Below, piece after piece: positions 21,088 to 40,000 of a DNA stretch of 59,268 nucleotides (position 1 is its first letter; each line of letters opens with the position of its first letter). The notes beneath the pieces were generated by a model. It searched no databases. It worked only from the letters and a program-made list of their open reading frames with translations, and was not told the origin of the DNA. A program made the position numbers and the translations under genes. This stretch comes from an uncultured Pelagibacteraceae bacterium. GTDB lineage: Bacteria > Pseudomonadota > Alphaproteobacteria > Pelagibacterales > Pelagibacteraceae. The stretch spans positions 1 through 59,268 of the forward strand of contig CACLZS010000005.1 of assembly GCA_902611465.1 (NCBI GenBank), in the 5' to 3' direction.

Positions 21088-21808
21088 AGTTATTCTCCTT
21101 CAACCACTTGTTTGTTTCCTTCAAGCCGCCGAATGTATAAATGTGAAAATAATCAGTATGCGATTTAACTTTCCCAATTAGATCATTAGGGTCTTTAGGT
21201 TTCAATAAATCTAATGCCTTACTAAAATTAGATTTAAGAAAATTAATGGAATTTTTTGCACCAACAATATTTGCAAACTTAATTAAGCTTGAAATTTTCA
21301 TGGGCCCAGTTATTCCAACATGAACTGGTATCGTTTGTTTAGAAATAAAGTCAACAATTGGTTGAGAATCTAGCAACCATTGAGTAACTATATAATCAGC
21401 ATAAGGCTTTTTATCTATCATTGCTTTTTCTAATTCTGAATCGGATATATCAGGACTACCCTCTGGATGTCCAGCAATTCCAATCTTAATTCCTTCAAAT
21501 AATCCTGTCTCTAATATTTGATATGAGCTGTCAAATTTTCCAACTGGGTCTCTACTTCCACCTATAGCCAATATTTGTCTCACACCTAAATCTTTACATC
21601 TCGAAATGTAGTCTTTAAGTTCTTCTTCATTATTTATTGATCTAGCTGGGAAGTGGGGTACTGGATTAAATCCTTTCTTAACCAAGTCACCAGATTTATC
21701 CGCAGTTTCTTTATAATCTCCTCCAGGTAGCATAGTCACATAAACATCTTTAACTTCAGGTAAAGTATCAAGATCTGTGTGAGGTCCAATTTCTAATGAA
21801 AAATTCAT
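21080..21808 (-). CDS. Methylenetetrahydrofolate reductase-like protein (short MetF family)
   Basis: A 242-residue TIM-barrel protein of the MetF family, about 50 residues shorter than E. coli MetF. Recognisable segments are FSLEIGPH at the N-terminus (the conserved Glu region), FNPVPHFPAR, VRQILAIGGSRDP, KIGIAGHPEG and PVHVGITGP, in MetF order. The expected reaction is interconversion of 5-methyl-THF and 5,10-methylene-THF with FAD. Placed directly before a GcvT/DmdA-like gene, it would oxidise the 5-methyl-THF that such an enzyme makes. Family call good; direction inferred. Confidence 0.82.
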   Translation of the reverse strand: MNFSLEIGPHTDLDTLPEVKDVYVTMLPGGDYKETADKSGDLVKKGFNPVPHFPARSINNEEELKDYISRCKDLGVRQILAIGGSRDPVGKFDSSYQILETGLFEGIKIGIAGHPEGSPDISDSELEKAMIDKKPYADYIVTQWLLDSQPIVDFISKQTIPVHVGITGPMKISSLIKFANIVGAKNSINFLKSNFSKALDLLKPKDPNDLIGKVKSHTDYFHIYTFGGLKETNKWLKENNYV

Positions 21809-21870: not shown

Positions 21871-22755
21871 CTATTTTTTCTGGCCTCTGTGCTTTTGAAT
21901 TCTCTCACCATATTTCTGAGTTACCCTATCAAAGATAATTGCTAAAGCAACTATGGCTAGCCCATTCATCATTCCAAGTGCTAAATACTGATTTGAAATT
22001 GCTTGTAAAATAGGTACTCCAAGACCTTTTACCCCAATCATAGATGCAATAACTACCATAGCTAAAGCCATCATTATAGTTTGGTTAATACCTGCAAAAA
22101 TAGTTGGTAGAGAAAGAGGTATTTGAACTGATTTTAACTTCTGCATAGGTGTTGCGCCAAATGCTTCACTTGCCTCAAGTGTTTCTTTATCTACTTCTCT
22201 AATCCCAAGATTTGTTAGCCTGACTACTGGAGGTAAAGCATATATGCATACTGCTAGAAGACCAGGGACTTTTCCGATACCCAAAAGCATAATTATTGGA
22301 ATTAGATACACAAAACTCGGAATCGTTTGCATCATGTCCAATACGGGTAGAATAGTTTTTTCTGCTCTACTTGATTTTGACATTAATACTCCAATAGGTA
22401 TTCCAACAACAATACAGACAAGTGTAGAAACAGAAATTATAGCAACAGTTGCCATACAATTTTTCCACATCCCAAAATAACCTATAATTAGAAAACAAAT
22501 TACAGTTCCTATAACCAGTTTAATACTTCTTGAACCAATCCAAGCCAACAGAGCAAACGCTCCTATGACTAAAGGCCAAGGACTATTTACTAATAACTTT
22601 TCTAACCAAATTAAAAAATATAGTAGTGGATCAAAAAAACTTTCTATTCCATCTCCATAAGCTCTTGAAAACTCTTTAAAACTTAAATCAATACCCTTTT
22701 TCAGCTCCCTAAGAGCTGTTCTATCCATTACAGGTATCGAATTTAAGAAATCCAT
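21871..22755 (-). CDS. proW: Glycine betaine/proline-type ABC transporter permease (ProW/OpuAB)
   Basis: A 294-residue membrane protein of the ProW family. After a polar N-terminus with FKEFSRAYGDGIESFFDPLL, about six helices follow. The EAA loop is RLTNLGIREVDKETLEASEA with QIPLSLPTIFAGINQ. VLDMMQTIPSFVYLIPIIMLLGIG is a classic ProW/OpuAB segment. It lies 48 bases after proX. No ATP-binding ProV/OpuAA gene is next to it: the MetF-like gene follows instead. Confidence 0.92.
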   Translation of the reverse strand: MDFLNSIPVMDRTALRELKKGIDLSFKEFSRAYGDGIESFFDPLLYFLIWLEKLLVNSPWPLVIGAFALLAWIGSRSIKLVIGTVICFLIIGYFGMWKNCMATVAIISVSTLVCIVVGIPIGVLMSKSSRAEKTILPVLDMMQTIPSFVYLIPIIMLLGIGKVPGLLAVCIYALPPVVRLTNLGIREVDKETLEASEAFGATPMQKLKSVQIPLSLPTIFAGINQTIMMALAMVVIASMIGVKGLGVPILQAISNQYLALGMMNGLAIVALAIIFDRVTQKYGERIQKHRGQKK

Positions 22756-22803: not shown

Positions 22804-23814
22804 TTATAGTGCTTTTTTGATTTTTGCAGCAGCTGAACTTGTTACCCACTTAGTCCAAACGTCTTCTTGTGTTTTTAAGAATTCAATAGCTGCATCTGCA
22901 CCTTCAGCTTGGTTTTCACCCATCCAAACTAACATTCCATTCATAACTGGGCCAGGGTAAGTTCTTTTCTTAAGATAATCCATACCTTCTTTTCCAGCAG
23001 TTTTTTTGTAATTATCAGTTGCAACACTATAAACTTCAGATTTAACCCATGAAGATTTTAAAGGATTAGCACACTCTTGTTCTGGTTTAGATAAACAGTT
23101 ATCCCAGTTATCTTTACCAGCATACTCACCCATATCCACAGCTATCATTCCGTATTTTCCAATTATAGCAGTTGGTGACCAGTAGTAACCAAACCAATTT
23201 TCACCTCTTTCTGCAGCTTTTGCAATTGAACCATCAAGACCTGCTGCTGATCCTGTTTCTACTATAGCCCAACCTTTTTCTTCCATTCCCCATGCTCTAA
23301 AATGGTTTCTGTTACTTAATTCACAGTTCCATCCTGGAGGACAAATATGAAACCCACCTTTTGATGGATCTTCCGGATGTGGGAATAAATCAGGTCTTTC
23401 TAAAATTGCATCGGCAGTTGTAAGCTCTGGATGCTTCTCTAAAGTTGCTGGCAATACCCACCAACCTTCACCTAAACCTGTGATTGGTGCTTTATTAATT
23501 GAGTGAAGTCTTCCTTCAGCTACAGCAGCTTCTAATTCAACTTTTGCAGCATTTGCCCAAAATTCTGGGGCTATATCTGGTTCACCTTTTTCTTGCATAG
23601 ATGCAAAAGTTGGCTGAGTTGCACCTGGCACCAATTCCACATTACATCCATAACCTTCTTCTAATATGATTTTGTCAACTTCAGCCATTAAATTTGCAGA
23701 AGCCCAGTTCATATTAGCAATACTAATGTCTCCACATTTTGCATTAGCAACATTACCGTAAGATGTAACGCCTAAAACAAATAATGCAGAAAGTAAGATT
23801 CTTTTTAATTTCAT
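22804..23814 (-). CDS. proX: Glycine betaine-type ABC transporter substrate-binding protein (ProX/OpuAC)
   Basis: Periplasmic solute-binding protein of 336 residues. It has a Sec signal peptide (KLKRILLSALFVLGVTSY followed by GNVANA) with likely cleavage after NANA-type Ala near residue 25. Mature motifs IANMNWASANLMAEV, GCNVELVPGATQPTFASM, PDIAPEFWANA, GWWVLPATLE and GYYWSPTAI are those of the ProX/OpuAC betaine family and carry the Trp residues used to cage quaternary ammonium groups. Likely ligands are glycine betaine and related osmolytes. It starts 133 bases from the divergent bhmT. Confidence 0.93.
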   Translation of the reverse strand: MKLKRILLSALFVLGVTSYGNVANAKCGDISIANMNWASANLMAEVDKIILEEGYGCNVELVPGATQPTFASMQEKGEPDIAPEFWANAAKVELEAAVAEGRLHSINKAPITGLGEGWWVLPATLEKHPELTTADAILERPDLFPHPEDPSKGGFHICPPGWNCELSNRNHFRAWGMEEKGWAIVETGSAAGLDGSIAKAAERGENWFGYYWSPTAIIGKYGMIAVDMGEYAGKDNWDNCLSKPEQECANPLKSSWVKSEVYSVATDNYKKTAGKEGMDYLKKRTYPGPVMNGMLVWMGENQAEGADAAIEFLKTQEDVWTKWVTSSAAAKIKKAL

Positions 23815-23947: not shown

Positions 23948-24988
23948 ATGAAAAGAAATTTGATATCAAGATTAGACACTGGTCCAGTTATATTTGCTGA
24001 AGGATATTTGTTTGCAATGGAAAGAAGAGGATATCTTTCTGCAGGTCCATTTGTCCCAGAAGTAGTTCTAGAACATCCTGATGTTGTTACTCAATTACAT
24101 AGAGAATTTATTAGAGCTGGTTCTGATGTTGTTCAAGCATTCACCTATTATGGACACAGAGAGAAATTAAGAATTATTGGAAAAGAACATTTGCTTGAAC
24201 CAATGCAAAAAAATGCACTTAAAATTGCAAAGGATGCGGCTAATGAATTTAAAGATTTGGATTTAATGGTTTGTGGAGATGTAGCTAACACAAACATTTT
24301 TGATCCAAATGATAAAAACTCATTCAATGAATGTCAAAAGATGTACGAGGAGCAAGTTCTTTGGGCAAAAGAGGCTGGAGTTGATTTCATAGTTGCAGAA
24401 ACAATTAATTGGGTAGATGAAATGAAAATAGCTTTAAAAGCTATTAAAGACGAAGGATTAATTGCAGTTGCAAATTACGCTATACCTCGTGGAGATTTAA
24501 CTAGAGACGGTCATACAGCCGAAGATGCATGTAAAATAATAGAAGATCTTGGTGCAGATGTTGTTGGTTTGAATTGTTACAGAGGTCCAGAAATGACCAT
24601 GAAACTTTTAAAAAAAATAAGAAAAAAAGTTTCCTGTCATGTTGCAGGTCTTCCAGTTCCATATAGAACTACAGAGGAAGAACCAGGATTTTTAAATCAG
24701 ACTGACCATGGTTGTGATTGCATTCCAGGAGGAAATGCATTCCCTGTTGCTCTAGATAATTTGTATTGTAATAGATTTGAAATGGCTGAATTTGCAAAAG
24801 AATGTCTTAAAGAAAAAATTAACTTAATCGGTATTTGTTGTGGCGCTGAGGCTCACCATGTTAGAGAAATGGCTGTTGCAATTGGTAAAAAACCAATTGC
24901 CATGAAGTACATGCCAGATATGACTAAACATTTTCACCATGGGACAGACAAGACATTGAAAGACGTCAATAAAGAAATAAAATATTAA
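23948..24988 (+). CDS. bhmT: Betaine--homocysteine S-methyltransferase
   Basis: Transfers a methyl group from glycine betaine to homocysteine, giving methionine and dimethylglycine. 346 residues of the homocysteine-methyltransferase barrel. The three zinc cysteines are C210 in GLNCYRGP and C297/C298 in IGICCGAEAHH, equivalent to the Cys triad of human BHMT. The N-terminal DTGPVIFAEGYLFAMERRGY and VQAFTYYGHREKL are BHMT-like. It is divergent from the betaine transporter and directly upstream of a dimethylglycine-dehydrogenase-like gene that would use its product. Confidence 0.92.
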   Translation: MKRNLISRLDTGPVIFAEGYLFAMERRGYLSAGPFVPEVVLEHPDVVTQLHREFIRAGSDVVQAFTYYGHREKLRIIGKEHLLEPMQKNALKIAKDAANEFKDLDLMVCGDVANTNIFDPNDKNSFNECQKMYEEQVLWAKEAGVDFIVAETINWVDEMKIALKAIKDEGLIAVANYAIPRGDLTRDGHTAEDACKIIEDLGADVVGLNCYRGPEMTMKLLKKIRKKVSCHVAGLPVPYRTTEEEPGFLNQTDHGCDCIPGGNAFPVALDNLYCNRFEMAEFAKECLKEKINLIGICCGAEAHHVREMAVAIGKKPIAMKYMPDMTKHFHHGTDKTLKDVNKEIKY

Positions 24989-24989
24989 C

Positions 24990-27395
24990 ATGCAAAATCA
25001 TGCAAAAGTAGTCATCATAGGAGGTGGCGTAGTAGGCTGTTCTATTCTTTATCATTTATCAAAGTTTGGTTTAAAAGATTGTATTCTTCTTGAAAGAAAC
25101 GAACTTACATCTGGATCTTCTTGGCATGCAGCTGGAAATGTACATGTGATTTCATCTGATCCGAATATTTCTAGAATGATGGCTTATACTATCGGATTAT
25201 ATAAAGAAATTGAAAAAGAGTCTGGCCATTCCGTTGGCTTCAAGCCAAGCGGAGGATTTTATTTAGCTTCAAATGAAGTTTGGGCGGATTATTTAAAAAG
25301 GGAGAGGTCTAAAGCTAGATATATGGGTCTAGATCAAGAGTTTGTTTCTTTAGAAGAAGTAAAAAAGAAAAATCCTTTAATTGATCCATCAAGATACCTT
25401 CTCGCATTATGGGATCCTATTGATGGGGAAGTAGATCCATCAGGTGTGACTTATGCTTTTGCTAAAGCAGCAAAAGTTCATGGTGGAAAATATTACACAC
25501 ATACAGTTGTAAAAGAGACAAAACAAAAAGAGGATGGAAATTGGGATGTGATAACTGACAAGGGTAATATTAATGCTGAAATAGTAATCAATGCTGGAGG
25601 TTTATGGGCAAGAGAAGTTGGCCAGCTTGCAGGAATTAATCTACCAGTTCAACCAATGGAGCATCACTACTTAATCACCGAAGCAATTCCCGAAATAGAG
25701 GCTATGGGCGATCAAAGAATTCCTATTGGAACAGATTTTGAGGGTAATATTTATTTTAGACAAGAAGGAAAAGGAATGCTTCTTGGAACTTATGAACCAA
25801 AATCAACACCCTGGAAGGTTGAAGGAACGCCGATGAATTTTGGTCATGAATTATTAGAACCAAAATTGGATAATATCCAAGATAGATTAGCAATAGGTTT
25901 TGAAAGAATGCCAGCATTAGAAAAAGCAGGAATTAAAAATATTGTAAATGGACCTTTTACTTTCGGACCTGATGGATCACCATTAATAGGTCCAGTTCCA
26001 GGAATGAAAAATTATTGGGTAGCAGTTGGTGTAATGGCTGGCTTCTGCCAAGGAGGAGGAGTTGGAAAATGTATTGCTGAATGGATAATTGATGGAGAAC
26101 CATCGATAGATGTTTGGGCAATGGATGTTGCAAGATTTGGAGATTATGCATCACCTCAATACGGAACAGTTAAATCTTCTGAAAATTATGAACGAAGATT
26201 TATTATGACATTTCCAAATGAAACTTTACCAAAAGGAAGAAAACAAAAAACAACAGCACTTTATGACCGGTTTGTAGATCAAGGTGCAGTTATGGGAGAC
26301 AGCTTTGGTTTAGAAAATGTTTTGTGGTTTGCAAATGATAAAAAAGATGCATACGAAGAGCCAACCATAAAAAGATCTAGATCACATAATTATGTCTCAA
26401 AAGAAGTTATTAATGTGAGAGAAAATGTTGGTTTAATTGAAGTTGCCAATTTTTCAAAACATCAATTTAAAGGAAAAGATGCAAGAAAGTTTTTAGATCA
26501 AATTATGGCAGGTAAGCTCCCTAATCCTGGAAGAATATCTTTATCTCCAATGTTATCCTATAGAGGAAAATTATGTGGCGATCTTACAGTTTCATGCCTT
26601 GATGAAAATGAATTTATGGTTTTTGGTTCGGGTGCAGCTCAAGAAATGCACAGACGTTGGTTTGAAAGTCATTTAGATAAATTTAATGTTGAATATAAAA
26701 ATAGATCAGATGAATTTCACGGGATATCTATAGCAGGACCTAATTCAAGAAAAGTTTTAGAAAAAATAGTTAGAGATGATGTATCTAATGAAAAATTTAA
26801 ATTTAGAGATTCAAGAAGAATGTTTGTTGGTGGTGTTCCAGCAATTATAAACCGTATTTCCTTCACTGGTGAACTTGGTTATGAAATATATGTTGCACCG
26901 CATTTCCAAATCAAACTTTATGAAGAGTTAATAGAGGCTGGAAAAGAATTTGATATTAAACCTTTTGGTGGAAGAGCTTTAATGTCTATGAGATTAGAGA
27001 AAAACTGGGGTGCATGGACTTTAGATTATCGACCTGATTTTACTGCCAAAGAGGCTGGATTAGATAATTTTATTAATTGGAATAAAGAATTTATAGGCAA
27101 AGAAAAAGCTAAACTTGATAACAGTTCAAATAGATTGGTTCCTTTAATTATTCAAACAAACGATATTGATGTCACAAACAATGAAGCTGTGATGAAAGGC
27201 GATAATAGCATTGGATATATAACCTCAGGTGGATTTGCTCATTTTGTAAATAAAAGTGTTGCTTTTTCATATATAGATCAAAAACATTTGTCATCCGAAG
27301 ATGGAATACAAGTTGAAATTAACGGAGATTTATTCAATTGCTCAATCATCAAAGAACCACTTTATGATCCAAGTGGAGAAAAAATGAGAGGTTAA
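24990..27395 (+). CDS. Dimethylglycine/sarcosine dehydrogenase-like flavoprotein (DAO + GcvT), paralogue 1
   Basis: 801 residues. Residues 1-390 form a DAO-type FAD domain with KVVIIGGGVVGCSILYHLS at 6-24 and the covalent-FAD histidine candidate H46 in SGSSWHAAGN. The second half, from about 420, is a folate-binding GcvT domain ending with RISFTGELGYEIYV. It oxidatively demethylates an N-methylglycine, passing C1 to THF and electrons to ETF. One base after bhmT and coupled by TAATG to the next methyltransferase gene, it is the best candidate for true dimethylglycine dehydrogenase among the three paralogues in the window (24990, 34222, 48035). Confidence 0.9.
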   Translation: MQNHAKVVIIGGGVVGCSILYHLSKFGLKDCILLERNELTSGSSWHAAGNVHVISSDPNISRMMAYTIGLYKEIEKESGHSVGFKPSGGFYLASNEVWADYLKRERSKARYMGLDQEFVSLEEVKKKNPLIDPSRYLLALWDPIDGEVDPSGVTYAFAKAAKVHGGKYYTHTVVKETKQKEDGNWDVITDKGNINAEIVINAGGLWAREVGQLAGINLPVQPMEHHYLITEAIPEIEAMGDQRIPIGTDFEGNIYFRQEGKGMLLGTYEPKSTPWKVEGTPMNFGHELLEPKLDNIQDRLAIGFERMPALEKAGIKNIVNGPFTFGPDGSPLIGPVPGMKNYWVAVGVMAGFCQGGGVGKCIAEWIIDGEPSIDVWAMDVARFGDYASPQYGTVKSSENYERRFIMTFPNETLPKGRKQKTTALYDRFVDQGAVMGDSFGLENVLWFANDKKDAYEEPTIKRSRSHNYVSKEVINVRENVGLIEVANFSKHQFKGKDARKFLDQIMAGKLPNPGRISLSPMLSYRGKLCGDLTVSCLDENEFMVFGSGAAQEMHRRWFESHLDKFNVEYKNRSDEFHGISIAGPNSRKVLEKIVRDDVSNEKFKFRDSRRMFVGGVPAIINRISFTGELGYEIYVAPHFQIKLYEELIEAGKEFDIKPFGGRALMSMRLEKNWGAWTLDYRPDFTAKEAGLDNFINWNKEFIGKEKAKLDNSSNRLVPLIIQTNDIDVTNNEAVMKGDNSIGYITSGGFAHFVNKSVAFSYIDQKHLSSEDGIQVEINGDLFNCSIIKEPLYDPSGEKMRG

Positions 27396-28024
27396 TGGCT
27401 CAAAAAGATGTAGGAAATAAAGTTCCAATTTACAAACTAAAAGAAACAAAAGAGGTAATGGATTTTTATGACGAATGGGGTCAGAATAATAAATATGATC
27501 AAGACATGGTTGATTGGAATTATACTGGTCCAAAAGAAACAGCGGAAGTTTTTAATAAACATCAAAAAGAAAAAGATATCGATATTTATGATGCCGGATG
27601 TGGAACCGGATTGGTTGGTGTTGAATTAAAAAAGTATGGTTTTGCTAATTTTTTTGGTGCCGATCTATCCCAAAAACTTTTAGATTTGGTTCCAAAAAAT
27701 CTTTATAAAAAATTAGATAAAGTTGATTTAAATAAACCAATCAATGAAAAAAATGATCAATATGATGCTTTAATGTGTGTGGGCACATTTACTTTTGGAC
27801 ATGTAAAACCACCTGCATTAGACGAGTTTATTAGAATTACTAAAAATAAAGGTTTAATTTGTTTCACTATAAATGAAGGAATATATGAGGAATATGGATT
27901 TGATAAAAAAATTAAACAATTAAAAAATGAAAATAAATGGAAAGAAATAGAGTTTTTTAAATCTGATTATATTGCCAGTAAAGATGTAAATGCATGGCTT
28001 GGCCTATATGAGTTGACAAAATAA
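27395..28024 (+). CDS. Class I SAM-dependent methyltransferase
   Basis: 209 residues with a Rossmann methyltransferase core. Motif I is DIYDAGCGTGLVGVEL near residue 68, the acidic motif II is FFGADLSQKLLDL, and the region YDALMCVGTFTFGHVKPPAL corresponds to motif IV/post-IV. The layout recalls the METTL27/Williams-Beuren-type small methyltransferases. It overlaps the dimethylglycine-dehydrogenase-like gene by one base and precedes the Rieske gene by 1 base. Substrate unknown; a role in making or using a methylated amine is inferred only from context. Confidence 0.82.
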   Translation: MAQKDVGNKVPIYKLKETKEVMDFYDEWGQNNKYDQDMVDWNYTGPKETAEVFNKHQKEKDIDIYDAGCGTGLVGVELKKYGFANFFGADLSQKLLDLVPKNLYKKLDKVDLNKPINEKNDQYDALMCVGTFTFGHVKPPALDEFIRITKNKGLICFTINEGIYEEYGFDKKIKQLKNENKWKEIEFFKSDYIASKDVNAWLGLYELTK

Positions 28025-28025
28025 A

Positions 28026-29201
28026 ATGTCAGCAATTTATAAAATAATAGATAAAAAAAAATTAGATATAGTTAAGAGACCAATTTCTAAAGCACATGGA
28101 CTTCCCAATGAATGTTATACAAGAAAAGATTATACTTTAATAGAAAGAGAAAAAATATTTGAAAATAAATGGACAGTAATAGGAGTAGCAAGTTCTTTGC
28201 CAAATATCGGTGATGTAAAACCATTTAATTTGTTAGGACTTCCATTATTTTTAATCAGAAATAAAAAAAATCAAATAAAAGTTTTTCACAACGTCTGTAG
28301 TCATAGAGGAGTAAAGTTAGTAAACAAAAAAGGTAATATTAGAAACGTTATTAGATGTCCTTATCATTCATGGTCATACACATCAGATGGAAAGCTAATT
28401 GCAACACCTCACATAGGTGGGATGAACAAACATAGTAGTGCAAAATTTAAAAAAAATAAGAACAATCTAAAAGAAATAAGATCATATGTTTGGTTAGATT
28501 TAATTTTTATTAATATTAGAAATAATGAAATTCCATTTGAAAAATATATTAAACCATTGAGTGATAGATGGTCAAAATTTTGGAAAATAAAAGATAGAAA
28601 ATTAATTAATCATGCAAGTGATTTTGGTTATTTTAAATTGAATGCAAAATGTAATTGGAAATTTGCGATTGAAAATTACTGTGAAAGTTATCATTTGCCG
28701 TGGGTTCACCCAGGTCTAAATACTTATTCAAAATTAGAAGATCATTATCATATTCAAGGATTGCCAAACCGTTTTGCAGGCCAGGGCACTGTTGTTTATA
28801 ATCCAAAATTTAAAGGAAAGGAAAAATTTCCCTGTTTTCCGAACTGGCCAAAAGATAAAGAAAATATCGCAGAATATGTAGCTTTATTTCCTAATGTTAT
28901 GCTAGGTATACATAAAGACCATTTCTACGCGTATTGGTTAGAACCTATTAATCATAAAAAAACTTTAGAACATATGGAAATATATTATGTAGGTGAAAAA
29001 GCCTCAAAAGCTCAAGAATTTAAACCACTAAGAAAACAAAATCTTAAATTGTGGGAAAGTATTCAAAAAGAAGACGTAGATATAATTCAAAGAATGCAAT
29101 TAGGCCGCAACTCCCATGCATATAATGGTGGAAATTTTTCTCCTGATATGGATAATCCAACGCACCAATTTCATAAATGGGTTGCATCTAACCTTATGTA
29201 G
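28026..29201 (+). CDS. Rieske-type oxygenase alpha subunit (choline/glycine betaine/carnitine monooxygenase-like)
   Basis: 391 residues. The Rieske [2Fe-2S] ligands C91-x-H93 (NVCSHRG) and C111-x2-H114 (CPYHSW) have the exact 17-residue spacing of the family. The mononuclear iron motif IENYCESYHLPWVHPG supplies H223 and H228. These are typical of quaternary-ammonium monooxygenases such as GbcA, which demethylates glycine betaine to dimethylglycine and formaldehyde. No ferredoxin-reductase partner (GbcB) lies nearby. Linkage to bhmT and a dimethylglycine dehydrogenase supports a methylamine-type substrate, but aromatic or other substrates are possible. Confidence 0.87.
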   Translation: MSAIYKIIDKKKLDIVKRPISKAHGLPNECYTRKDYTLIEREKIFENKWTVIGVASSLPNIGDVKPFNLLGLPLFLIRNKKNQIKVFHNVCSHRGVKLVNKKGNIRNVIRCPYHSWSYTSDGKLIATPHIGGMNKHSSAKFKKNKNNLKEIRSYVWLDLIFINIRNNEIPFEKYIKPLSDRWSKFWKIKDRKLINHASDFGYFKLNAKCNWKFAIENYCESYHLPWVHPGLNTYSKLEDHYHIQGLPNRFAGQGTVVYNPKFKGKEKFPCFPNWPKDKENIAEYVALFPNVMLGIHKDHFYAYWLEPINHKKTLEHMEIYYVGEKASKAQEFKPLRKQNLKLWESIQKEDVDIIQRMQLGRNSHAYNGGNFSPDMDNPTHQFHKWVASNLM

Positions 29202-29215
29202 AAAGAGAGATTAAT

Positions 29216-29656
29216 ATGTATAGACCTTTGCCAGACGAATTAACAATAAAGAGTTCTCCAATTGAAGGTTTAGGATTATTCGCAACTAAAGAAATTAAAG
29301 CTAACACTTTTATTGGTATAACTCACATAAGAGATGAGCAGTTTGAAAATAAATATATAAGAACTCCATTAGGTGGTTTTTATAATCATTCTGATAGTCC
29401 CACAGTTCAAAGAATGGTATCTAATATTTTACCTACATTAAAATTTGGTGATCCAATTGATCCTACTGCAAAAGCAAAGAAGTTTAATGAGAACGATGAT
29501 AACCTAGAAAACATGTATTATAATTTAAGAGAGAAACCAGACGCAAAATATTTTTTTATGGTTTCAATTAAAGATTTGAAGCCCGGAGATGAGCTTTGTG
29601 CAAATTATAATTTATACACCTATCCAAAGACAGGAGTAGGTGTACAGATGTTATAG
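29216..29656 (+). CDS. SET-domain protein
   Basis: 146 residues comprising little more than a SET domain. SSPIEGLGLFATKEIKANTF is the N-terminal SET-N motif, GFYNHSDSP the NHS pseudoknot motif, and PGDELCANYNLYTYP the C-terminal Gly-Asp-Glu-x-x-x-x-Tyr. SET proteins usually methylate lysines; bacterial ones are uncommon and few have known targets. It sits in the middle of an osmolyte operon, 14 bases after the Rieske gene and 2 bases before the DddP-like gene. An AAAGAGAGA stretch just upstream may be its ribosome site. Target unknown. Confidence 0.85.
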   Translation: MYRPLPDELTIKSSPIEGLGLFATKEIKANTFIGITHIRDEQFENKYIRTPLGGFYNHSDSPTVQRMVSNILPTLKFGDPIDPTAKAKKFNENDDNLENMYYNLREKPDAKYFFMVSIKDLKPGDELCANYNLYTYPKTGVGVQML

Positions 29657-29658
29657 GA

Positions 29659-30894
29659 ATGAAGTTTAATAGAAAAATTCTTTTAGAAACCCAACCTACT
29701 AAGAAATATATATCAAAAAAAAGATTTAGAGAAGATGAAATAGATTTCGATAAACTTAGATCTTATAGACTTGACAGAGTAAGAAATGAATTAAAGAAAA
29801 ATAATATTGAAGCATGTATTTTATTTGATCCAGTAAATGTAAGGTATGCATTAGACACCGTAAATATGAGTGTTTATAATATGCATAATCTTACAAGGTA
29901 TTGTTTTATCCCTGTTGATGGTCCTACAATATTGTATGAATATTTTAATTGTGAAATATTATCTAAAGGTCTTGATTTAATAGATGAAATAAGACCAGCA
30001 ATTACTTGGGATTATTTTAGTAATGGAGACCAATCAGAATTACAACTAAAAAAATGGGTTAATGAAGTTGATGATTTATCTAATACATATTTTAAAAGTA
30101 AAAAAATTGCAATTGATGTTATCAATGGTCCAGCTGTAAATGAACTGAATAAAAAAGGTATTAAAGTTTTAGAGGCAAAAAAAATTCTTGAGCAAGCTAG
30201 GGTAATTAAATCCTCTGAAGAAATTAAATGTATGCGTGCAGCTTTAGATGTTGCTGATGTTGGAATAATTAAAATGAGAGATTACTTGAAATCAGGAATT
30301 ACAGAGGATGAGCTATGGTCTATTTTACATAAAACAAACATTGAAAATGGTGGAGAATGGATAGAATGTAGAATTTTATCTTCGGGCTCTAGAACTAATC
30401 CTTGGATGCAAGAAAGTAGTAATAAAATTATACAAGATGGTGAAATAGTGTCTTTTGATACAGACATGGTTGGCCCGTATGGATATTGTGCTGATATTTC
30501 AAGAGCATTTGTTTGTGGAAATAAATTCAACGAAAATCAAAAGAAATTATATCAAACAGCTGTTGAGCAAATAGATTATAATTCAAGATTGATTAAAGCT
30601 GGGGTAACGTTTAAAGAGTTTACAGAAAAAGCATGGATACTTCCTAGTAAATATTATGGAAATAGATACTCTGTTATGCTTCATGGCATAGGCTTATGTG
30701 ACGAATGGCCTGCAATTAGATATCCAACTGATGGAGGAGAAAGAAGTGGTACATTTCAGAAAAATATGACAATTACTTTAGAAAGTTATATTGGAGAAGT
30801 CGGAGGGAATGAAGGAGTGAAATTAGAACAGCAATATTTAGTTGGTGAGAATGGATTAGAGTTAATGTCTCATCATCCATTAGAAAAAATTTAA
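29659..30894 (+). CDS. DddP-like M24-family metalloenzyme (candidate DMSP lyase)
   Basis: 411 residues with the creatinase/pita-bread fold. The metal ligands of DMSP lyase DddP have counterparts with matching spacing: D267-x-D269 in SFDTDMVG, D279 in YCADISR (10 residues on, whereas ordinary aminopeptidases have 11), H342 in MLHGIGLCD, E375 in LESYIGE and E390 in VKLEQQY. D348, six residues after the His, matches the proposed DddP catalytic Asp377. The IECRILSSGSRTNPWMQES stretch also resembles DddP as I remember it. The alternative is a creatinase or prolidase. It overlaps the following kinase gene by one base. DMSP cleavage would yield DMS and acrylate. Confidence 0.75.
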   Translation: MKFNRKILLETQPTKKYISKKRFREDEIDFDKLRSYRLDRVRNELKKNNIEACILFDPVNVRYALDTVNMSVYNMHNLTRYCFIPVDGPTILYEYFNCEILSKGLDLIDEIRPAITWDYFSNGDQSELQLKKWVNEVDDLSNTYFKSKKIAIDVINGPAVNELNKKGIKVLEAKKILEQARVIKSSEEIKCMRAALDVADVGIIKMRDYLKSGITEDELWSILHKTNIENGGEWIECRILSSGSRTNPWMQESSNKIIQDGEIVSFDTDMVGPYGYCADISRAFVCGNKFNENQKKLYQTAVEQIDYNSRLIKAGVTFKEFTEKAWILPSKYYGNRYSVMLHGIGLCDEWPAIRYPTDGGERSGTFQKNMTITLESYIGEVGGNEGVKLEQQYLVGENGLELMSHHPLEKI

Positions 30895-31301
30895 TGAAAA
30901 TAATTTTAATTATGGGTTTGCCTGGGGCTGGCAAAACAACATTGGCAGACGAACTAGCCCCTAAACTCAATGCAAAAAGATTAAATGCTGACGAGGTTAG
31001 AAAAGCAGCAAATGATTGGGATTTTTCAGAAGAAGGTAGAAAAAGACAGGCAAAAAGAATGGCTGACTTTGCTTTGGAATTAAAAAAACAGGGAAATTAT
31101 GTTGTAGCAGATTTTATTTGCCCAACACCTGAGGCAAGAAAATTATTTCCAGCAGATTTTGTGATTTGGGTAGATACGATCAATGAAGGAAGGTTTGAAG
31201 ATACTAATCAAATGTTTGTCAAACCTGAAAAATTTGATTTTCATGTAACTACTCAAAATGCTAAGGTTTGGACTGATAAAATAATTAAGGAGATATCATA
31301 A
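30894..31301 (+). CDS. Adenylylsulfate-kinase-like P-loop kinase
   Basis: 135 residues, shorter than CysC (about 200). The P-loop GLPGAGKTT is at residues 8-16. LNADEVRKAANDWDFSEEGR resembles the APS-kinase LDGDNVR...GFSxxDR region, and VVADFICPTPEARKLF its I-S-P/R strand. The C-terminal substrate lid is reduced. APS kinase phosphorylates adenylyl sulfate, but related small kinases act on other alcohols. It is coupled by one-base overlaps to both neighbours: the DddP-like gene and a small nucleotidyltransferase. Kinase fold is clear; substrate unknown. Confidence 0.8.
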   Translation: MKIILIMGLPGAGKTTLADELAPKLNAKRLNADEVRKAANDWDFSEEGRKRQAKRMADFALELKKQGNYVVADFICPTPEARKLFPADFVIWVDTINEGRFEDTNQMFVKPEKFDFHVTTQNAKVWTDKIIKEIS

Positions 31302-31675
31302 TGAGTTATGAATGGGATAATAAAAAACCAACAGCACAAATGCTTGGAAGATGGCAACCTTTTCATGAGGGTCACTATACATTATTTAGAGAGATCATAA
31401 AAAAAACTGGTCAAGTGTGTATTCAAATAAGAGATGTACAAGGAGTTGATGATAATCCATTCGACTTTGAAACTGTAAAAAAAAATATTGAAGATAAATT
31501 AAATCCAGAGTTTGAAGGAAGATTCAAAATAATGATGGTCCCAAACATTACAAATATTTGTTACGGAAGAGGAGTGGGCTATAAAATTGAGGAGATCGTA
31601 TTATCTGAAGAAATACAGAAAATTTCAGCCACAAAAATTAGAGCTAAAATGCGTGAAGATGGAGAATTAAAATAA
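31301..31675 (+). CDS. Small nucleotidyltransferase (HxGH superfamily)
   Basis: 124 residues. GRWQPFHEGHYTLF contains the HxGH nucleotide-binding motif (H22, H25), and ISATKIRAKM near the C-terminus is the ISxTxxR motif of NMN/cytidylyl/pantetheine adenylyltransferases. It is far too small to be ATP sulfurylase. Reaction type: transfer of AMP or CMP to a phosphorylated acceptor. Overlap with the upstream kinase suggests a two-step phosphorylate-then-nucleotidylate pair acting on one small molecule (inference). Substrate unknown. Confidence 0.82.
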   Translation: MSYEWDNKKPTAQMLGRWQPFHEGHYTLFREIIKKTGQVCIQIRDVQGVDDNPFDFETVKKNIEDKLNPEFEGRFKIMMVPNITNICYGRGVGYKIEEIVLSEEIQKISATKIRAKMREDGELK

Positions 31676-31689
31676 TTATAAACTTCAAT

Positions 31690-32463
31690 ATGAATGTAAA
31701 AACAAGAAAATTAGGTAAGGGAATTACAAATGTGGTAATTAATGATCCTAAAACCTACAATTCTCTGTCATTTAAAACTTTAAGAGATCTTTTAAATACA
31801 TTTATTCGGTTAGATAAAGATAATGATACTAGGGTAATAATATTAGAAGGTTCCGGTAAAGGTTTTAGCGCTGGTCATAATCTTAAAGAAGTAGGTGGAA
31901 TAAAAAATCGGTCAAATCACCTTAAATTATTTAATCTTTGTTCAAAATTAATGATGAAAATTGTTGAAGGAAAGAAACCAGTTATTGCAAAAGTGCATGG
32001 TGCAGCTTACGCGGCCGGATGTCAGTTAGCTGCAAGTTGTGACCTTGCATACAGCACAACAACAGCTACATTTGCAACACCTGGAGTAAATATTGGATTG
32101 TTTTGTAGCACGCCAATGGTTGCTGTTAGTAGAAAGGTGACTAGAAAAATTATGATGAAGATGCTTTTAACTGGAGAGCCAATAAATGCTAAATATGCAA
32201 AAGATATTGGTTTAATTAATGATTGTTTTTCAAGTAAAAAACTTAATTCAGAAGTTTTAAAAATTGCAAAAACCATTTCTTCAAAATCAAATTTAACAAT
32301 TAAAATTGGTAAACAAGCTTTCTACAAACAATTAGAAATGCCATTAGGAGATGCATACAAATTTACGAGTAAAATGATGACTTTAAATATGGCTTCACAA
32401 GATGCAAAAGAGGGAATATCAGCTTTTTTACAAAAAAGAAAACCTAACTGGAAAAATAAATAA
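31690..32463 (+). CDS. Crotonase-fold protein, ECHDC3-like, lacking both catalytic glutamates
   Basis: 257 residues of the enoyl-CoA hydratase/isomerase fold. The CoA-binding loop GSGKGFSAGHNL lies near residue 54, and the oxyanion region is AAYAAGCQLAASCDLAYS. The two catalytic Glu of enoyl-CoA hydratase are replaced by Q112 and G132 (ATPGVNIGLFCSTP). This matches the ECHDC3-type subgroup, not a standard hydratase. It may bind an acyl-CoA or perform another reaction. It lies 14 bases after the nucleotidyltransferase gene and 21 bases before a CoA-binding-domain gene, a suggestive pairing. Confidence 0.85.
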   Translation: MNVKTRKLGKGITNVVINDPKTYNSLSFKTLRDLLNTFIRLDKDNDTRVIILEGSGKGFSAGHNLKEVGGIKNRSNHLKLFNLCSKLMMKIVEGKKPVIAKVHGAAYAAGCQLAASCDLAYSTTTATFATPGVNIGLFCSTPMVAVSRKVTRKIMMKMLLTGEPINAKYAKDIGLINDCFSSKKLNSEVLKIAKTISSKSNLTIKIGKQAFYKQLEMPLGDAYKFTSKMMTLNMASQDAKEGISAFLQKRKPNWKNK

Positions 32464-34221: not shown

Positions 34222-36657
34222 ATGATGAAAACAAAAGCAAAAGTTGTAGTAGTAGGTGGTGGAGTTGTTGGTGTTAGTGCTCTGTATCATTTAGCTAAAA
34301 AAGGTTGGTCAGATGTTGTTTTGATTGAAAGAAAAGAATTAACCTCAGGTTCAACATGGCACGCAGCCGGATTACTTCCATTATTTAATATGAGCTACTC
34401 AGTTGGCCAATTACATAAATATGCTGTCAACCTTTATAAAAGCTTAGAAGAAGAAACAGGCAAAAACGTCGGTTTCAGTGTTGTTTCAAATATTAGATTA
34501 GCAGACAACAAAGATAGAATGGATGAGTATCATCAATACGCTGGAGTTGCAAAAACTATCGGAGTAGATGTAAAATTTCTAACACCAGATCAAGTAAAAG
34601 AAATTTGGCCTTTGTGTAATACAAAGGATTTAATTGGAGCAATTCAACATCCCGAAGATGGATACATTCAACCAGCTGATTTAACGCAAGCATTAGCTAC
34701 GGGCGCAAGAAATAGAGGTGCTGAGATTTACAGAAATACAACAGTTCTGGCAATGAAACAAAATAAAGATGGATGGGTTGTTGAAACAGATAAAGGATCT
34801 ATAGAATGTGAACACGTAATTTCATGTTCAGGAAATTTTGCTAGACAAACTGGTAAGATGGTTGGTTTAGATATTCCAGTAATACCAGTTGAACATCAAT
34901 ACATTGTAACAGAACCACATCCAGAAATTCAAAAAAGAAAAAAAGAAGGTCTTCCAGAAATGGGAGTTTTAAGAGATAGCGATAGCAGATGGTACATGAG
35001 AGAGGAAGCGGGTGGTTTAATTTTAGGACCATATGAAGATGGTGCTCCTGCCTGTTATGTAGATGGTCCTTCAAAGGAATCTGAGTATGAACTTTTCCAA
35101 GAAGATCTAGATAGACTTGCTCCTCATATTGAAGGAGCTATTCATAGAGTTCCAGCATTTGGAGAGGTAGGTGTTAAAAAAGTTTACAACGGTGCTATTT
35201 GCTATACTCCAGATGGAAATCCGATAGTTGGTCCGGCATGGGGATTAAAGAACTTTTGGATTAATGAAGGTCATAGTTTTGGAATTACAGCAGCCGGTGG
35301 AGCCGGATGGCAATTAGCAGAGTGGATTGTTGATGGTGAACCTACAATTGATATGCTTGGAGTAGAACCAAGAAGATATGGAGATTATTGCTCAAAATCA
35401 TATCTTAAAGAGAAGAATGAAGAAGCTTATAGTCATGTATTTATAACTCACTTTCCAGATGAAGAAAGACCAGCTGCTAGACCTTTAAGAACAGCCCCGT
35501 GTTATGACAGAATGAAAAATCTTGGTGCAGTTTTTGGTCAAAAATTTGGATGGGAAAGACCAAACTTTTTTGCAACTGATGGCATGGAACAAAAGGATGA
35601 TTGGTCGTTCAGAAGATCTAATTGGTTTAAGGCAGTAGAAAAAGAGTGCAAAAATGTAAAAGAAAATGTTGGACTACTAGATATGACTGCATTTGCTAAG
35701 TGCAGAATTAAAGGACCTGGAGCAGAGGAATTTTTAGATAAGTTGGTGGCTAATAAACTACCAAAAAAAGTTGGTAGAATTAATTTGTGTCACGCATTGA
35801 ATACAAAAGGTGGTGTTCATTCAGAATTTACAATAATGAGAGAGTCTGAAAATAGCTTTTATCTTGTTTCTGCTGGAGCCTATCAAAGATTGGATCACGA
35901 TTGGATCTTTGGCTGGATGCCAAAAGATGGATCAGTTCAATTTGAGAACTTAACAAATAGCAAAGGTGTTCTTGTGGTATCGGGACCGAAAGCAAGAGAA
36001 TTAATGCAAAGGGTATCAAATGATGATTTTTCAAATGAAAATTTTAAATGGTTAAGTGCAAAACAAGTTGATGTTGGCTTTGCACCCGTTAATGCTATGA
36101 GAGTAAATTTTGTTGGAGAGCTAGGATGGGAACTCCACCATCCTATTGAATATCAAAATCATATTTTCGATAAACTTATGGATGCAGGTCAAGACTTAGG
36201 TTTAAAACCTTATGGTATTAGAGCAATGAACAGTTTAAGAGTTGAAAAATCCTACAAACTAGTTGGAACTGAATTATCAATTGAGTATTCACCTTACGAA
36301 AGTGGTTTAGATAGATTTATTCATCCAAATAAAGGGAGTTTTATTGGACTTGATGCTTTAAATAAATGGAGAGAAAAAGGCTTTGATAATAAGCTTGTTA
36401 CTCTAGAGGTTCACGAAACTAGTGATGCGGATGTGCTAGGAAACAACCCAATTTATGAAAATGGTAGTGTTGTAGGACGTGCAACTGGTGGTGACTTTGG
36501 ATTTAGACTAGGAAAATCTATCGCACTAGGAATGGTTAAACCTGAGTTAGCAAATGTTGGACAAAAACTAAGGATTGATATACTTGGTAAAATGCATGAG
36601 GCAACAATTTTAGAAGAAAGTCCTTACGATGCAGAAAATAAATTATTGAGAGCTTAA
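34222..36657 (+). CDS. Dimethylglycine/sarcosine dehydrogenase-like flavoprotein (DAO + GcvT), paralogue 2
   Basis: 811 residues with the same two-domain plan as the gene at 24990. The FAD motif [19 protein letters not shown] is at 7-25 and the covalent-FAD histidine is H47 in [23 protein letters not shown] and [13 protein letters not shown] complete the oxidase half. The GcvT half carries [16 protein letters not shown] second ATG three bases in (34225) is an equal start choice. It overlaps etfB by one base, so its electrons should go to the ETF encoded next to it. Substrate may be dimethylglycine, sarcosine or another N-methyl amino acid. Confidence 0.9.
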
Positions 36658-37406
36658 TGAAAATTTTAGTCGCTGTAAAAAGAGTTATTGATTATAACGT
36701 TCAAATTAGAGTTAAAGAGGACGGTAGTGGTGTAGTTACTGATAACGTTAAAATGTCAACTAACCCACCAGATGACAATGCTATTGAGGAAGCTGTAAAA
36801 ATAAAAGAGTCAGGTAAAGCAACAGAAATAATAGCAGTTACTGTTGGTGAAGAGAAAGCTCAAGAGACAGTTAGAAAAGCTTTAGCAGTAGGAGCAGATA
36901 GAGGAATTCATGTAAAGGTTGATGGTATCATTGAACCTCTTGCTGTATCTAAAATATTAAAAAAAATTGTTGAAAAAGAAAATCCAGATTTAGTATTTAT
37001 GGGTAAACAAGCAATTGATGATGACTGCAATCAAACAGGTCAAATGTTAGCGGCACATTTAAATTGGCCACAAGCAACTTTTGCTTCAAAAATTGAGGTA
37101 AGCGATAAATCATTACAAGTTACTAGAGAGGTAGATGAAGGTCTGGAAACTATAGAAGTTAATACACCAGCTATTGTTACGTGTGATTTAAGATTAAATG
37201 AGCCAAGATATGCGTCACTGCCAAATATAATGAAAGCTAAAAAAAAACCTATTGAACAGATTAATGCGTCAGATCTAGGAGTTGATACAAAACCTAGAAT
37301 AGAACATATTAAGATTGAAGAACCACCGAAAAGAAAAGCAGGTATAAAGGTTGCTAGTGTTGAAGAATTAGTACAAAAATTAAAAAATGAGGCAAAGGTA
37401 ATTTAA
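36657..37406 (+). CDS. etfB: Electron transfer flavoprotein beta subunit
   Basis: 249 residues, standard length. [18 protein letters not shown] opens the domain, [16 protein letters not shown] and [20 protein letters not shown] are invariant EtfB segments, and [24 protein letters not shown] is the EtfB signature. It takes electrons from flavin dehydrogenases such as the upstream dimethylglycine-dehydrogenase-like protein. One-base overlaps join it to both neighbours. Confidence 0.97.
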
Positions 37407-38359
37407 TGTCAGTTTTATTAATAGCAGAGCATAACAACAAAGAAGTAAAACCATTTACTTTAAATGCAATTACAGCTGCATCACAAATAGATAAAGATCT
37501 TCATGTATTGTTAATTGGAAGTAAGGCAGATGATGTTGCAAAATCATTATCTGAAGTTCCTTTAGTAAAAAAAGTTCTGCATATAGATCATGAAATTTAT
37601 GAAAATTATATTGCTGAGAATTATACTGCGGCAATTTTAAAACACGCTGATAAATATTCACATATTATTTGCTCAGCAAATACATTTGGAAAAAACCTTA
37701 TGCCACGAGTTGCAGCATTGTTAGATATTTCACAAGTGAGCGATATTATAAAAGTAATTTCTCCTGATACTTTTTTAAGACCAATTTATGCTGGAAATGC
37801 ATTTGCTACTGTTAAAAGTAATGATGAAAAAAAATGTGTTACTATTAGACCAACATCATTTGAAGCAGCTGAAACAACTGGTGGATCTGCAGAAATAGAA
37901 AAAATCGATGCAGCAGATCAAAGTGAAAATACGAAATTTATTAATAGAGAAGAAATTAAATCAGATAGACCTGAATTAGGCACTGCCAGAATAGTAATTT
38001 CAGGTGGTAGAGGCTTACAAAGCGGAGAAAACTTCAAACTGATAACCGATGTAGCGGACAAATTAAACGCTGCAATAGGAGCTTCAAGAGCTGCGGTCGA
38101 TGCAGGATATATTACAAACGAGCATCAAGTGGGACAAACAGGAAAAGTTGTTGTTCCTGATTTATATATAGCAGTTGGAATTTCTGGAGCCATTCAACAT
38201 TTAGCAGGAATGAAAGAAAGTAAAGTTATTGTTGCTATAAATAAAGATGGTGAAGCACCTATTTTTAGTGTCGCAGATTACGGCTTGGAAGCTGATTTAT
38301 TCGAAGCACTTCCTCAATTCTTAGAGGAACTGAACAAATTAAACACTATACAAAAATAA
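37406..38359 (+). CDS. etfA: Electron transfer flavoprotein alpha subunit
   Basis: 317 residues. The FAD-binding C-terminal domain is clear: VISGGRGLQSGENFKLI, GASRAAVDAGY, VGQTGKVVVPDLYIAVGISG (an EtfA signature) and INKDGEAPIFSVADYGLEAD. It forms the heterodimer with EtfB and carries the electron-transferring FAD. It lies 21 bases before the ETF-quinone oxidoreductase gene. Confidence 0.97.
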   Translation: MSVLLIAEHNNKEVKPFTLNAITAASQIDKDLHVLLIGSKADDVAKSLSEVPLVKKVLHIDHEIYENYIAENYTAAILKHADKYSHIICSANTFGKNLMPRVAALLDISQVSDIIKVISPDTFLRPIYAGNAFATVKSNDEKKCVTIRPTSFEAAETTGGSAEIEKIDAADQSENTKFINREEIKSDRPELGTARIVISGGRGLQSGENFKLITDVADKLNAAIGASRAAVDAGYITNEHQVGQTGKVVVPDLYIAVGISGAIQHLAGMKESKVIVAINKDGEAPIFSVADYGLEADLFEALPQFLEELNKLNTIQK

Positions 38360-38380
38360 CAAATACTGTAAAAAATTAGT

Positions 38381-40000
38381 ATGTCCAGAGAAGTGATGGA
38401 ATACGATGTTGTAATCGTAGGTGGCGGGCCATCGGGACTTTCAACTGCAATTAAATTAAAGCAGTTAAATCCAGATATTAATGTCTGCCTGTTAGAAAAA
38501 GCATCTGAAATAGGTGCACATATTTTATCCGGGAACGTGTTTGAAACGCGAGCCTTAGACGAACTATTGCCAAATTGGAAAGATCTTAATCCACCAATTA
38601 AAACAAAAGTTAATAAAGAAAAGTTTCTATTTTTAGGTAAGACAAAAAAAATTAGTTGGCCAACTTGGTTATTACCTAAAGTACAACAAAACCATAATAA
38701 TTATATTATCAGTCTAGCTAATCTATGTAGATGGTTAGCAGAACAAGCTGAAAGTCTTGGAGTTGAAATATTTCCAGGTTTTCCTGCAAGTGAAGTTTTA
38801 TATAAAGACGATGGCTCCGTTAAGGGTGTAGCAACTCAAGATATGGGTTTAGATAAAGAGGGCAATAAAAAAGATGGTTATGAACCAGGAATGGAGCTTC
38901 ACGCAAAAGTTACAGTTTTTGCAGAAGGGTGTAGAGGACATTTAGGAAAAGAATTAATCCAAAAATTTAATTTAGATAAAGGAAAAGATCCACAACAGTA
39001 TGGAATAGGATTTAAAGAAATATGGGAATTAAAAGAAGAAAATCACGACGAAGGTCTAGTGATGCATACAGCAGGCTGGCCACTAGATAATAATACCTAT
39101 GGGGGGAGCTTTGTTTATCATGCTGAAAATAAACAGATATTTTTAGGATATGTCATTGGTCTTGATTATAAAAATCCTCATCTTTCACCGTTTGATGAAT
39201 TTCAAAAATTTAAAACTCATCCTGCAATTAAATCAATATTAGAAGGTGGTAAAAGAATATCATATGGAGCAAGAGCACTTATAGAGGGAGGTTTTCAAAG
39301 TCTACCTAGGATGTTTATGCCAGGTGCATTATTAGTTGGTTGTGATGCTGGTACATTAAATATGCCGAAAATTAAAGGATCACATACTGCAATGAAAAGT
39401 GGAATGATTGCAGCAGAAACTATTATTGATCACATAAAATCAAGCAAAGAATTATCTAATTACGAGGAAAAATTTAAAAAAAGTTGGGTTTATAAAGAAT
39501 TATATGAAGCTAGAAATGTTAAACCTAGCTTTAGTTGGGGTTTAATTCTTGGAATAATATTTACTGGGATTGATCAAATTTTATTTAAAGGAAGATTGCC
39601 ATTTACACTTAAACATAAACATGCAGATCACGAAACTTTAAAACCAGCAAGTGAAATGCCAAAAATAGATTATCCAAAACCAGATAATGTTATTACATTT
39701 GATAAAACTAGTTCAGTTTATCTAACGGGAACTAATCATGCTGAAAATCAACCAGTACATCTTCAACTTAAAGACAAAGATTTACCAATAAAATATACTT
39801 TAGGTAAATACGATGAGCCTGCGCAAAGATACTGTCCAGTTGGAGTTTATGAAATTCAAAAAGAAAATGATGTTGAGAAATTTGTGATCAATTCTCAAAA
39901 TTGCATTCATTGTAAAACTTGCGATATAAAAGAGCCATCACAAAATATTACCTGGGTCACGCCAGAAGGTGGGGGTGGGCCTAAGTACGGAAATATGTAG
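38381..40000 (+). CDS. Electron transfer flavoprotein-ubiquinone oxidoreductase
   Basis: 539 residues, normal for ETF-QO. The FAD motif VVIVGGGPSGLSTAIKL is near residue 10. The C-terminal [4Fe-4S] region reads RYCPVGVYEI ... INSQNCIHCKTCDIK, giving four Cys, followed by WVTPEGGGGPKYGNM, the typical end. It passes electrons from reduced ETF to ubiquinone at the membrane. Together with etfBA and the preceding flavoprotein it makes a complete route from N-methyl oxidation to respiration. Its stop abuts the convergent DUF2237 gene. Confidence 0.96.
   Translation: MSREVMEYDVVIVGGGPSGLSTAIKLKQLNPDINVCLLEKASEIGAHILSGNVFETRALDELLPNWKDLNPPIKTKVNKEKFLFLGKTKKISWPTWLLPKVQQNHNNYIISLANLCRWLAEQAESLGVEIFPGFPASEVLYKDDGSVKGVATQDMGLDKEGNKKDGYEPGMELHAKVTVFAEGCRGHLGKELIQKFNLDKGKDPQQYGIGFKEIWELKEENHDEGLVMHTAGWPLDNNTYGGSFVYHAENKQIFLGYVIGLDYKNPHLSPFDEFQKFKTHPAIKSILEGGKRISYGARALIEGGFQSLPRMFMPGALLVGCDAGTLNMPKIKGSHTAMKSGMIAAETIIDHIKSSKELSNYEEKFKKSWVYKELYEARNVKPSFSWGLILGIIFTGIDQILFKGRLPFTLKHKHADHETLKPASEMPKIDYPKPDNVITFDKTSSVYLTGTNHAENQPVHLQLKDKDLPIKYTLGKYDEPAQRYCPVGVYEIQKENDVEKFVINSQNCIHCKTCDIKEPSQNITWVTPEGGGGPKYGNM

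Follow-up and report, generated by a model that had tools for sequence, protein, structure and literature searches.

The window, a 59,268-nucleotide stretch of contig CACLZS010000005.1 from an uncultured Pelagibacteraceae bacterium with a SAR11-type genome, carries an open reading frame of 411 amino acids at 29659–30894 (+). The window's open-reading-frame list gives it the coordinates and strand stated in the first-pass annotation, and scores, tree position, residues and predicted structure identify its product as an M24B protein of the DddP superfamily. The ORF begins 2 bases past a gene for a SET-domain protein (29216–29656, +) that most SAR11 loci do not conserve, and it shares its final base with the start of a gene for an APS-kinase/AAA_33-type small kinase-like protein (30894–31301, +). 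This tight spacing suggests that the ORF is a member of an operon. Upstream of the SET gene lies a row of genes for a BHMT-like homocysteine S-methyltransferase (23948–24988, +), a dimethylglycine/sarcosine dehydrogenase (DMGDH)-like protein with DAO and GCV_T domains (24990–27395, +), a SAM-dependent methyltransferase (27395–28024, +) and the alpha subunit of a Rieske oxygenase of the quaternary-ammonium type (28026–29201, +), whose nearest NCBIfam model is GbcA (122 bits, against a cut-off of 670) and whose nearest solved structure is carnitine monooxygenase (110 bits). Divergent from this row are an OpuAC glycine-betaine-type substrate-binding protein (22804–23814, −) and an ABC transporter permease of the BPD_transp_1 family (21871–22755, −). 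The same strand also encodes a weakly matching MTHFR-like protein (21080–21808, −) and a DmdA-like GCV_T-family protein of 452 amino acids (19729–21087, −) that scores 237 bits, under the DmdA cut-off of 410. Downstream of the kinase-like gene are a cytidylyltransferase-like gene (31301–31675, +; a weak match, just under its cut-off) and genes for an enoyl-CoA hydratase (31690–32463, +), a second dimethylglycine/sarcosine dehydrogenase-like protein (34222–36657, +) and ETF beta, ETF alpha and ETF-ubiquinone oxidoreductase (36657–40000, +). The transporter, BHMT-like, DMGDH-like and Rieske genes that surround the ORF bear out its earlier placement in a betaine operon; the role of SAR11 Bhmt is treated in PMC12478193. 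Elsewhere in the genome two other proteins exceed the DmdA cut-off, so the cell probably uses DMSP, and a search of this genome (an assembly 80% complete) for the PF16867 cupin DMSP lyase, a family search with DddK outside its scope, found none.

The seven residues that had been proposed as DddP metal ligands and catalytic aspartate (D267, D269, D279, H342, D348, E375 and E390) are all present in the ORF. Aligned to DddP, for which the metal-ligand numbering is that of PMC4108388, they correspond to D295, D297, D307, H371, D377, E406 and E421, respectively, and the motif spacings of 10, 6 and 15 are equal in the two proteins. To these can be added Y337, the counterpart of Y366, the second proposed active-site residue, which was missing from the earlier list. 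The 10-residue Asp–Asp spacing, which had been read as a difference from ordinary M24 peptidases, is present but does not describe the homologous pair, since peptidases have no residue that corresponds to D269; the residues homologous to the peptidase pair are D267 and D279, with a spacing of 12 in the ORF versus 11 in the aligned Thermotoga protein 2zsg. The catalytic histidine of 2zsg aligns to D348, so that the ORF has an aspartate there and not the peptidase histidine. With the DddP superfamily taken as M24B proteins that have an extra aspartate ligand and an aspartate in place of the catalytic histidine, the ORF shows both the fold and the motif pattern of the superfamily. However, neither the six metal ligands nor Y366 varies across the 65 superfamily rows tabulated, and D377 is kept in 62 of the 65 (lost in three). 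Being common to nearly the whole superfamily, these residues do not tell DddP apart from the other members. The match that had been offered as a mark of DddP therefore places the ORF in the superfamily and not in DddP, and we rejected it as proof of a DMSP lyase.

Against the NCBIfam DddP model NF043017 the ORF scored 349.6 bits, with the next best of 11 models at 75.6 bits. This is 250 bits below the curated DddP cut-off of 600 bits, and the first 49 positions of the model were unmatched; two comparison proteins above the cut-off scored 882.9 bits (L043) and 787.8 bits (L179). In a search of the PDB, four DddP sequences came out on top (272–276 bits) and the next M24 protein followed at 69 bits. 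The AlphaFold2 model of the ORF, built on a 31-row alignment, had a pLDDT of 89.4 and a pTM of 0.86, and its superposition on DddP, one of the checks proposed earlier, gave a TM score of 0.89 at 1.9 Å, while the other 46 matches among the 50 listed were at or below 0.75. The closest solved relatives of the ORF are DddP. M24B prolidase/aminopeptidase P, creatinase and the ectoine hydrolase DoeA are alike in fold, with TM scores of at most 0.75 among the matches listed, but did not exceed 69 bits in the search of the PDB or 75.6 bits among the non-DddP NCBIfam models: the PepQ model gave the 75.6 bits (cut-off 630), and two models of the ectoine hydrolase DoeA/EutD gave 40.3 bits (cut-off 575) and 22.3 bits (cut-off 613). 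Of the order's 247 genomes searched, 53 have the DddP-like gene, and all 53 belong to the genus of the window's genome; apart from the window's own copy, the match is full-length and free of internal stops in 51 of them and split over two contig-end pieces in one more. Comparison of the ORF with four relatives gave dN/dS values of 0.04–0.13, at dS values up to 1.95, near saturation. The DddP score in the PDB set, the conservation across the genus and the low dN/dS show that the gene is more than a chance reading frame.

Compared with DddP (RlDddP, 4rzy, 4s00 and 4s01; RdDddP, 4b28), the ORF is alike in predicted fold, in the six ligands, in the counterparts of Y366 and D377 and in motif spacing. 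It is 35% identical to RlDddP over 390 residues and differs at W95 (Tyr in the ORF), W115 (Tyr), F140 (Asp) and F155 (Trp), while W248, W262 and W277 are kept. W95 is invariant in the 27 DddP-clade rows tabulated and W115 is present in 26 of them, whereas both positions are Tyr or Phe in 10 SAR11 rows; F140 is Asp in all 21 SAR11 and related rows. According to a review (PMC5395565), the sulfur of DMSP is bound by one Trp and one Tyr, although the passage concerned does not number the Trp. Some superfamily branches outside the DddP clade keep W95, which weakens the loss of this residue as a DMSP marker.

In a first tree of 93 rows, from which the copies L094 and L081 were left out, the SAR11 proteins grouped together, apart from the DddP clade, which had 33 rows and included RlDddP. 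The root of this tree was not relied on, because long branches meet in it (L036 with L066) and its outgroups are very distant. In a more careful, unrooted tree of 57 chosen rows, a branch with 100/100 support parted 20 DddP-clade rows from the remainder, and an AU test, for a group picked after the first tree had been seen, rejected a tree in which SAR11 and DddP together make up one side of a branch (p = 1.7e-5, log-likelihood 125 lower). The trees were drawn without the DddP2 of Oceanimonas doudoroffii and the DddP of Fusarium graminearum, both ratified distant DddPs, and without other fungal DddPs. By its sequence, then, the ORF falls within the DddP superfamily, in a subfamily other than DddP. 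The first-pass annotation had read it as a DddP-type DMSP lyase and had itself named placement outside the DddP clade as the refuting result. Of that reading, the DddP-type M24 protein in the betaine operon of a SAR11-type genome stands, whereas the assignment as the DMSP lyase DddP is not supported, given the separate clade and the score below cut-off. To these two differences from DddP is added the setting of the ORF in a Rieske and betaine operon.

Neighbouring genes were scanned over 8.5 kb on each side of 85 loci, in which the 23 SAR11 loci counted had been picked for flank length from the SAR11 loci fetched. A Rieske gene was present within this distance in all 23 (16/16 of the main type and 7/7 of an alternative type), in 14 of the 42 loci of other superfamily members that fall outside the DddP clade, and in none of 20 DddP-clade loci. 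The other 28 of the 42 had no Rieske gene within 8.5 kb, some of them being cut by contig ends, and it is likewise because of contig ends that several shorter SAR11 loci (e.g. L126, L133, L148 and L150) show none. The window's genome and two other SAR11 genomes (26 genomes searched) each have a single Rieske gene of the PF00848 type, which lies near the DddP-like gene in all three. An MttB-type methyltransferase gene lies beside the gene in every locus of one Rhizobium-type branch (4/4) and of Sinorhizobium/Mesorhizobium (2/2); in the DddP clade the count is 1 of 20. The DMGDH link is not exclusive, since 5 of 20 DddP-clade genes also have DMGDH-like genes nearby. The 42 loci include some from Rhizobium, Paraburkholderia and Caballeronia that combine a Rieske gene, a hybrid-cluster reductase gene and an M24 gene. 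The proteins annotated there as 'Xaa-Pro peptidase family' (Rhizobium leguminosarum WSM1689, P. largidicola and C. grimmiae plasmids) are 43.8–44.3% identical to the ORF and share its key residues and its Rieske neighbour, but belong to another superfamily branch, keep W95 and have no BHMT gene in the three annotated regions.

The set of flanking genes (SET, kinase-like, hydroxylase) varies between SAR11 loci. In many main-type SAR11 loci, though not in the alternative type, the DddP-like gene is followed by the kinase-like and cytidylyltransferase-like genes (30894–31675, + in the window), and carnitine-dehydrogenase-like genes adjoin it at other loci of SAR11 and at L166. A gene of the FrhB type (F420 hydrogenase beta-like) lies near it in some SAR11 loci and in Pseudomonas sp. 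MPC6 (L156:10841-12067 and L034:13258-14487). The SAR11 loci within a set of at least 80 (L099–L178) come from single-cell or metagenome assemblies as far as their titles tell, with no isolate named among them, and a cultured host may therefore be hard to find.

A 2OG hydroxylase gene (Pfam HalD-related) was present in 50 of the 53 genomes that carry the DddP-like gene versus 7 of 194 that do not (Fisher p = 8e-41), and a Rieske gene in 52 of the 53 versus 53 of the 194; p-values of this kind ignore shared descent. The hydroxylase gene directly follows the DddP-like gene in all seven alternative-type SAR11 loci, where its product matches Pfam HalD/WelO5 (e.g. L118:9243-10091). An H-x-D motif denotes a hydroxylase, not a halogenase. 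The motif was seen in 12 rows displayed from an alignment of 25, which led us to reject the halogenase reading of this neighbour; the HalD-type 2OG enzyme is probably a hydroxylase. A HalD-type 2OG gene is also found near the DddP-like gene of Pseudomonas sp. MPC6. In the window's genome the hydroxylase gene sits on another contig (contig 9; L238, 1–18000), in an island that also encodes a gamma-butyrobetaine-dioxygenase-like protein (322 bits, cut-off 415), an L-carnitine-dehydrogenase-like protein (350 bits, cut-off 414), a betaine-type transporter, BKACE, a class II aldolase and a thioesterase. With enzyme assignments that lie below the cut-offs, this set would be fit to convert gamma-butyrobetaine and carnitine to glycine betaine.

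Bona fide DddP does occur in the order, in 15 of the 247 genomes, all of one genus (g7), at 786–788 bits to the DddP model. In the two g7 genomes inspected (G002 and G008; L179, 8574–9941, +, and L180) it lies in a gene order of BKACE, carnitine-dehydrogenase-like, gamma-butyrobetaine-dioxygenase-like, DddP, BHMT and DMGDH. The g7 protein shares 89% identity with one encoded in G827, a genome of family f24, which we infer to be Rhodobacteraceae because RlDddP is 85% identical to an f24 protein. This identity, together with the position of the g7 protein among f24 proteins in the tree, suggests transfer of DddP between the two, and the arrangement as a whole suggests that the betaine-locus slot in this order attracts enzymes of the DddP superfamily. 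With DddP in such a locus, it becomes more probable that the window's enzyme shares DddP's chemistry, but the question of a betaine substrate for DddP itself also arises.

Our leading explanation, to which we give about an even chance, is that the ORF encodes a putative two-metal lyase, or less likely hydrolase, for a trimethylammonium osmolyte, acting with an M24B pita-bread fold in quaternary-ammonium catabolism. DddP has a two-metal site and a proposed beta-elimination mechanism with Asp377 as the base (PMC4108388, PMC5395565), and since the ORF keeps all the residues of this site and mechanism, it most likely catalyses an elimination beside a carboxylate. The neighbouring genes favour a substrate with a trimethylammonium group over one with a sulfonium group. 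A trimethylammonium carboxylate would be bound by the two metals through its carboxylate group, D348 would take the proton adjoining this group, and Y337 would face the onium or the leaving group. The bond cut may be C–N, with release of the amine, or C–O, with hydrolysis as an alternative, and the beta-elimination could then feed or drain the pathway leading to glycine betaine, BHMT and DMGDH. This explanation draws on the fold and site, the placement outside DddP, the Rieske and MttB neighbours, the transporter, BHMT and DMGDH genes, the hydroxylase co-occurrence, the carnitine island and the match of the Rieske protein to carnitine monooxygenase. Against it stand the g7 DddP in the same kind of BHMT/DMGDH locus (genes for DMSP and for betaines may simply collect in one osmolyte island), the two DmdA genes over cut-off, and the retention of all eight key DddP residues. 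The 28 other loci with no Rieske gene nearby and the DMGDH-like genes beside DddP-clade genes also count against it, as do the disregard of descent in the co-occurrence p-value and the position of the hydroxylase and carnitine genes on another contig.

Several of these points would fit a divergent DMSP/DMSOP lyase, which would perform a DddP-like di-metal beta-elimination to DMS (or DMSO) and acrylate within an island for imported osmolytes in SAR11. The eight residues, DddP as the nearest solved relative, the g7 locus and the enoyl-CoA hydratase gene downstream of the ORF are all in keeping with such an enzyme. In its favour, too, O. doudoroffii DddP2 is described as active though phylogenetically distinct, and F. 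graminearum DddP as active in E. coli though 32% identical to RdDddP (PMC10989825, PMC4108388). Nevertheless, the position of the ORF outside the DddP clade, its score under the cut-off and the changes at W95 and W115 argue against DMSP as the substrate, as do the relatives that adjoin Rieske oxygenases in soil and plant bacteria. To our knowledge DMSP is not an expected substrate in such bacteria, and we consider a DMSP/DMSOP lyase unlikely.

Less likely still, in our view, is an ordinary M24B-type hydrolase, a peptidase or amidohydrolase that acts on a peptide or amide of an osmolyte pathway. The M24 fold, a Pfam Peptidase_M24 match of 110 bits and the 'Xaa-Pro peptidase family' annotation of the relatives all speak for it, but the ORF has D348 at the catalytic-histidine position of 2zsg and the extra aspartate ligand, as in DddP, and scores poorly against the peptidase models. 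RlDddP, which has the same residues, shows no Val-Pro activity according to a review (PMC5395565). We think it similarly improbable that the substrate is unrelated to betaines and that the operon position is historical. The variable flanking genes in SAR11 and the many loci elsewhere that have no Rieske gene in reach would be expected on this account; the recurrence of betaine-type neighbours in distant lineages and the co-occurrence with the hydroxylase across 247 genomes would not.

In the open-access literature we found no paper on the SAR11 DddP-like subfamily, which may have been described elsewhere, nothing on a combination of Rieske, M24 and betaine, and no lead for a homarine pathway, which was dropped as a candidate. 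DddP serves as a marker gene for DMS production, and how the ORF is counted depends on the rule applied. One survey, which lists DddP among Pelagibacterales enzymes, used an HMM threshold of E 1e-30 (PMC8520302); at an E of 2e-104 to another DddP model, the ORF would probably be counted. Another required 40% identity (PMC6309047), a rule that would probably exclude it, given its 35% identity to RlDddP. If the ORF acts on betaines, counts made by the first rule overstate the potential of SAR11 for DMS production and miss a nitrogen-osmolyte route. The betaine neighbours across the superfamily and the g7 DddP in a carnitine operon offer concrete alternative substrates. More speculatively, and with doubt outweighing confidence, the DddP superfamily may at its root consist of onium-betaine lyases tied to quaternary-ammonium catabolism, with DddP specialised for sulfonium compounds. 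On this view the SAR11 protein would be a C–N (or C–O) betaine lyase on the M24 fold that opens a route for trimethylammonium osmolytes in abundant ocean bacteria, and part of what is counted as SAR11 'dddP' in metagenomes would not be DMSP lyase.
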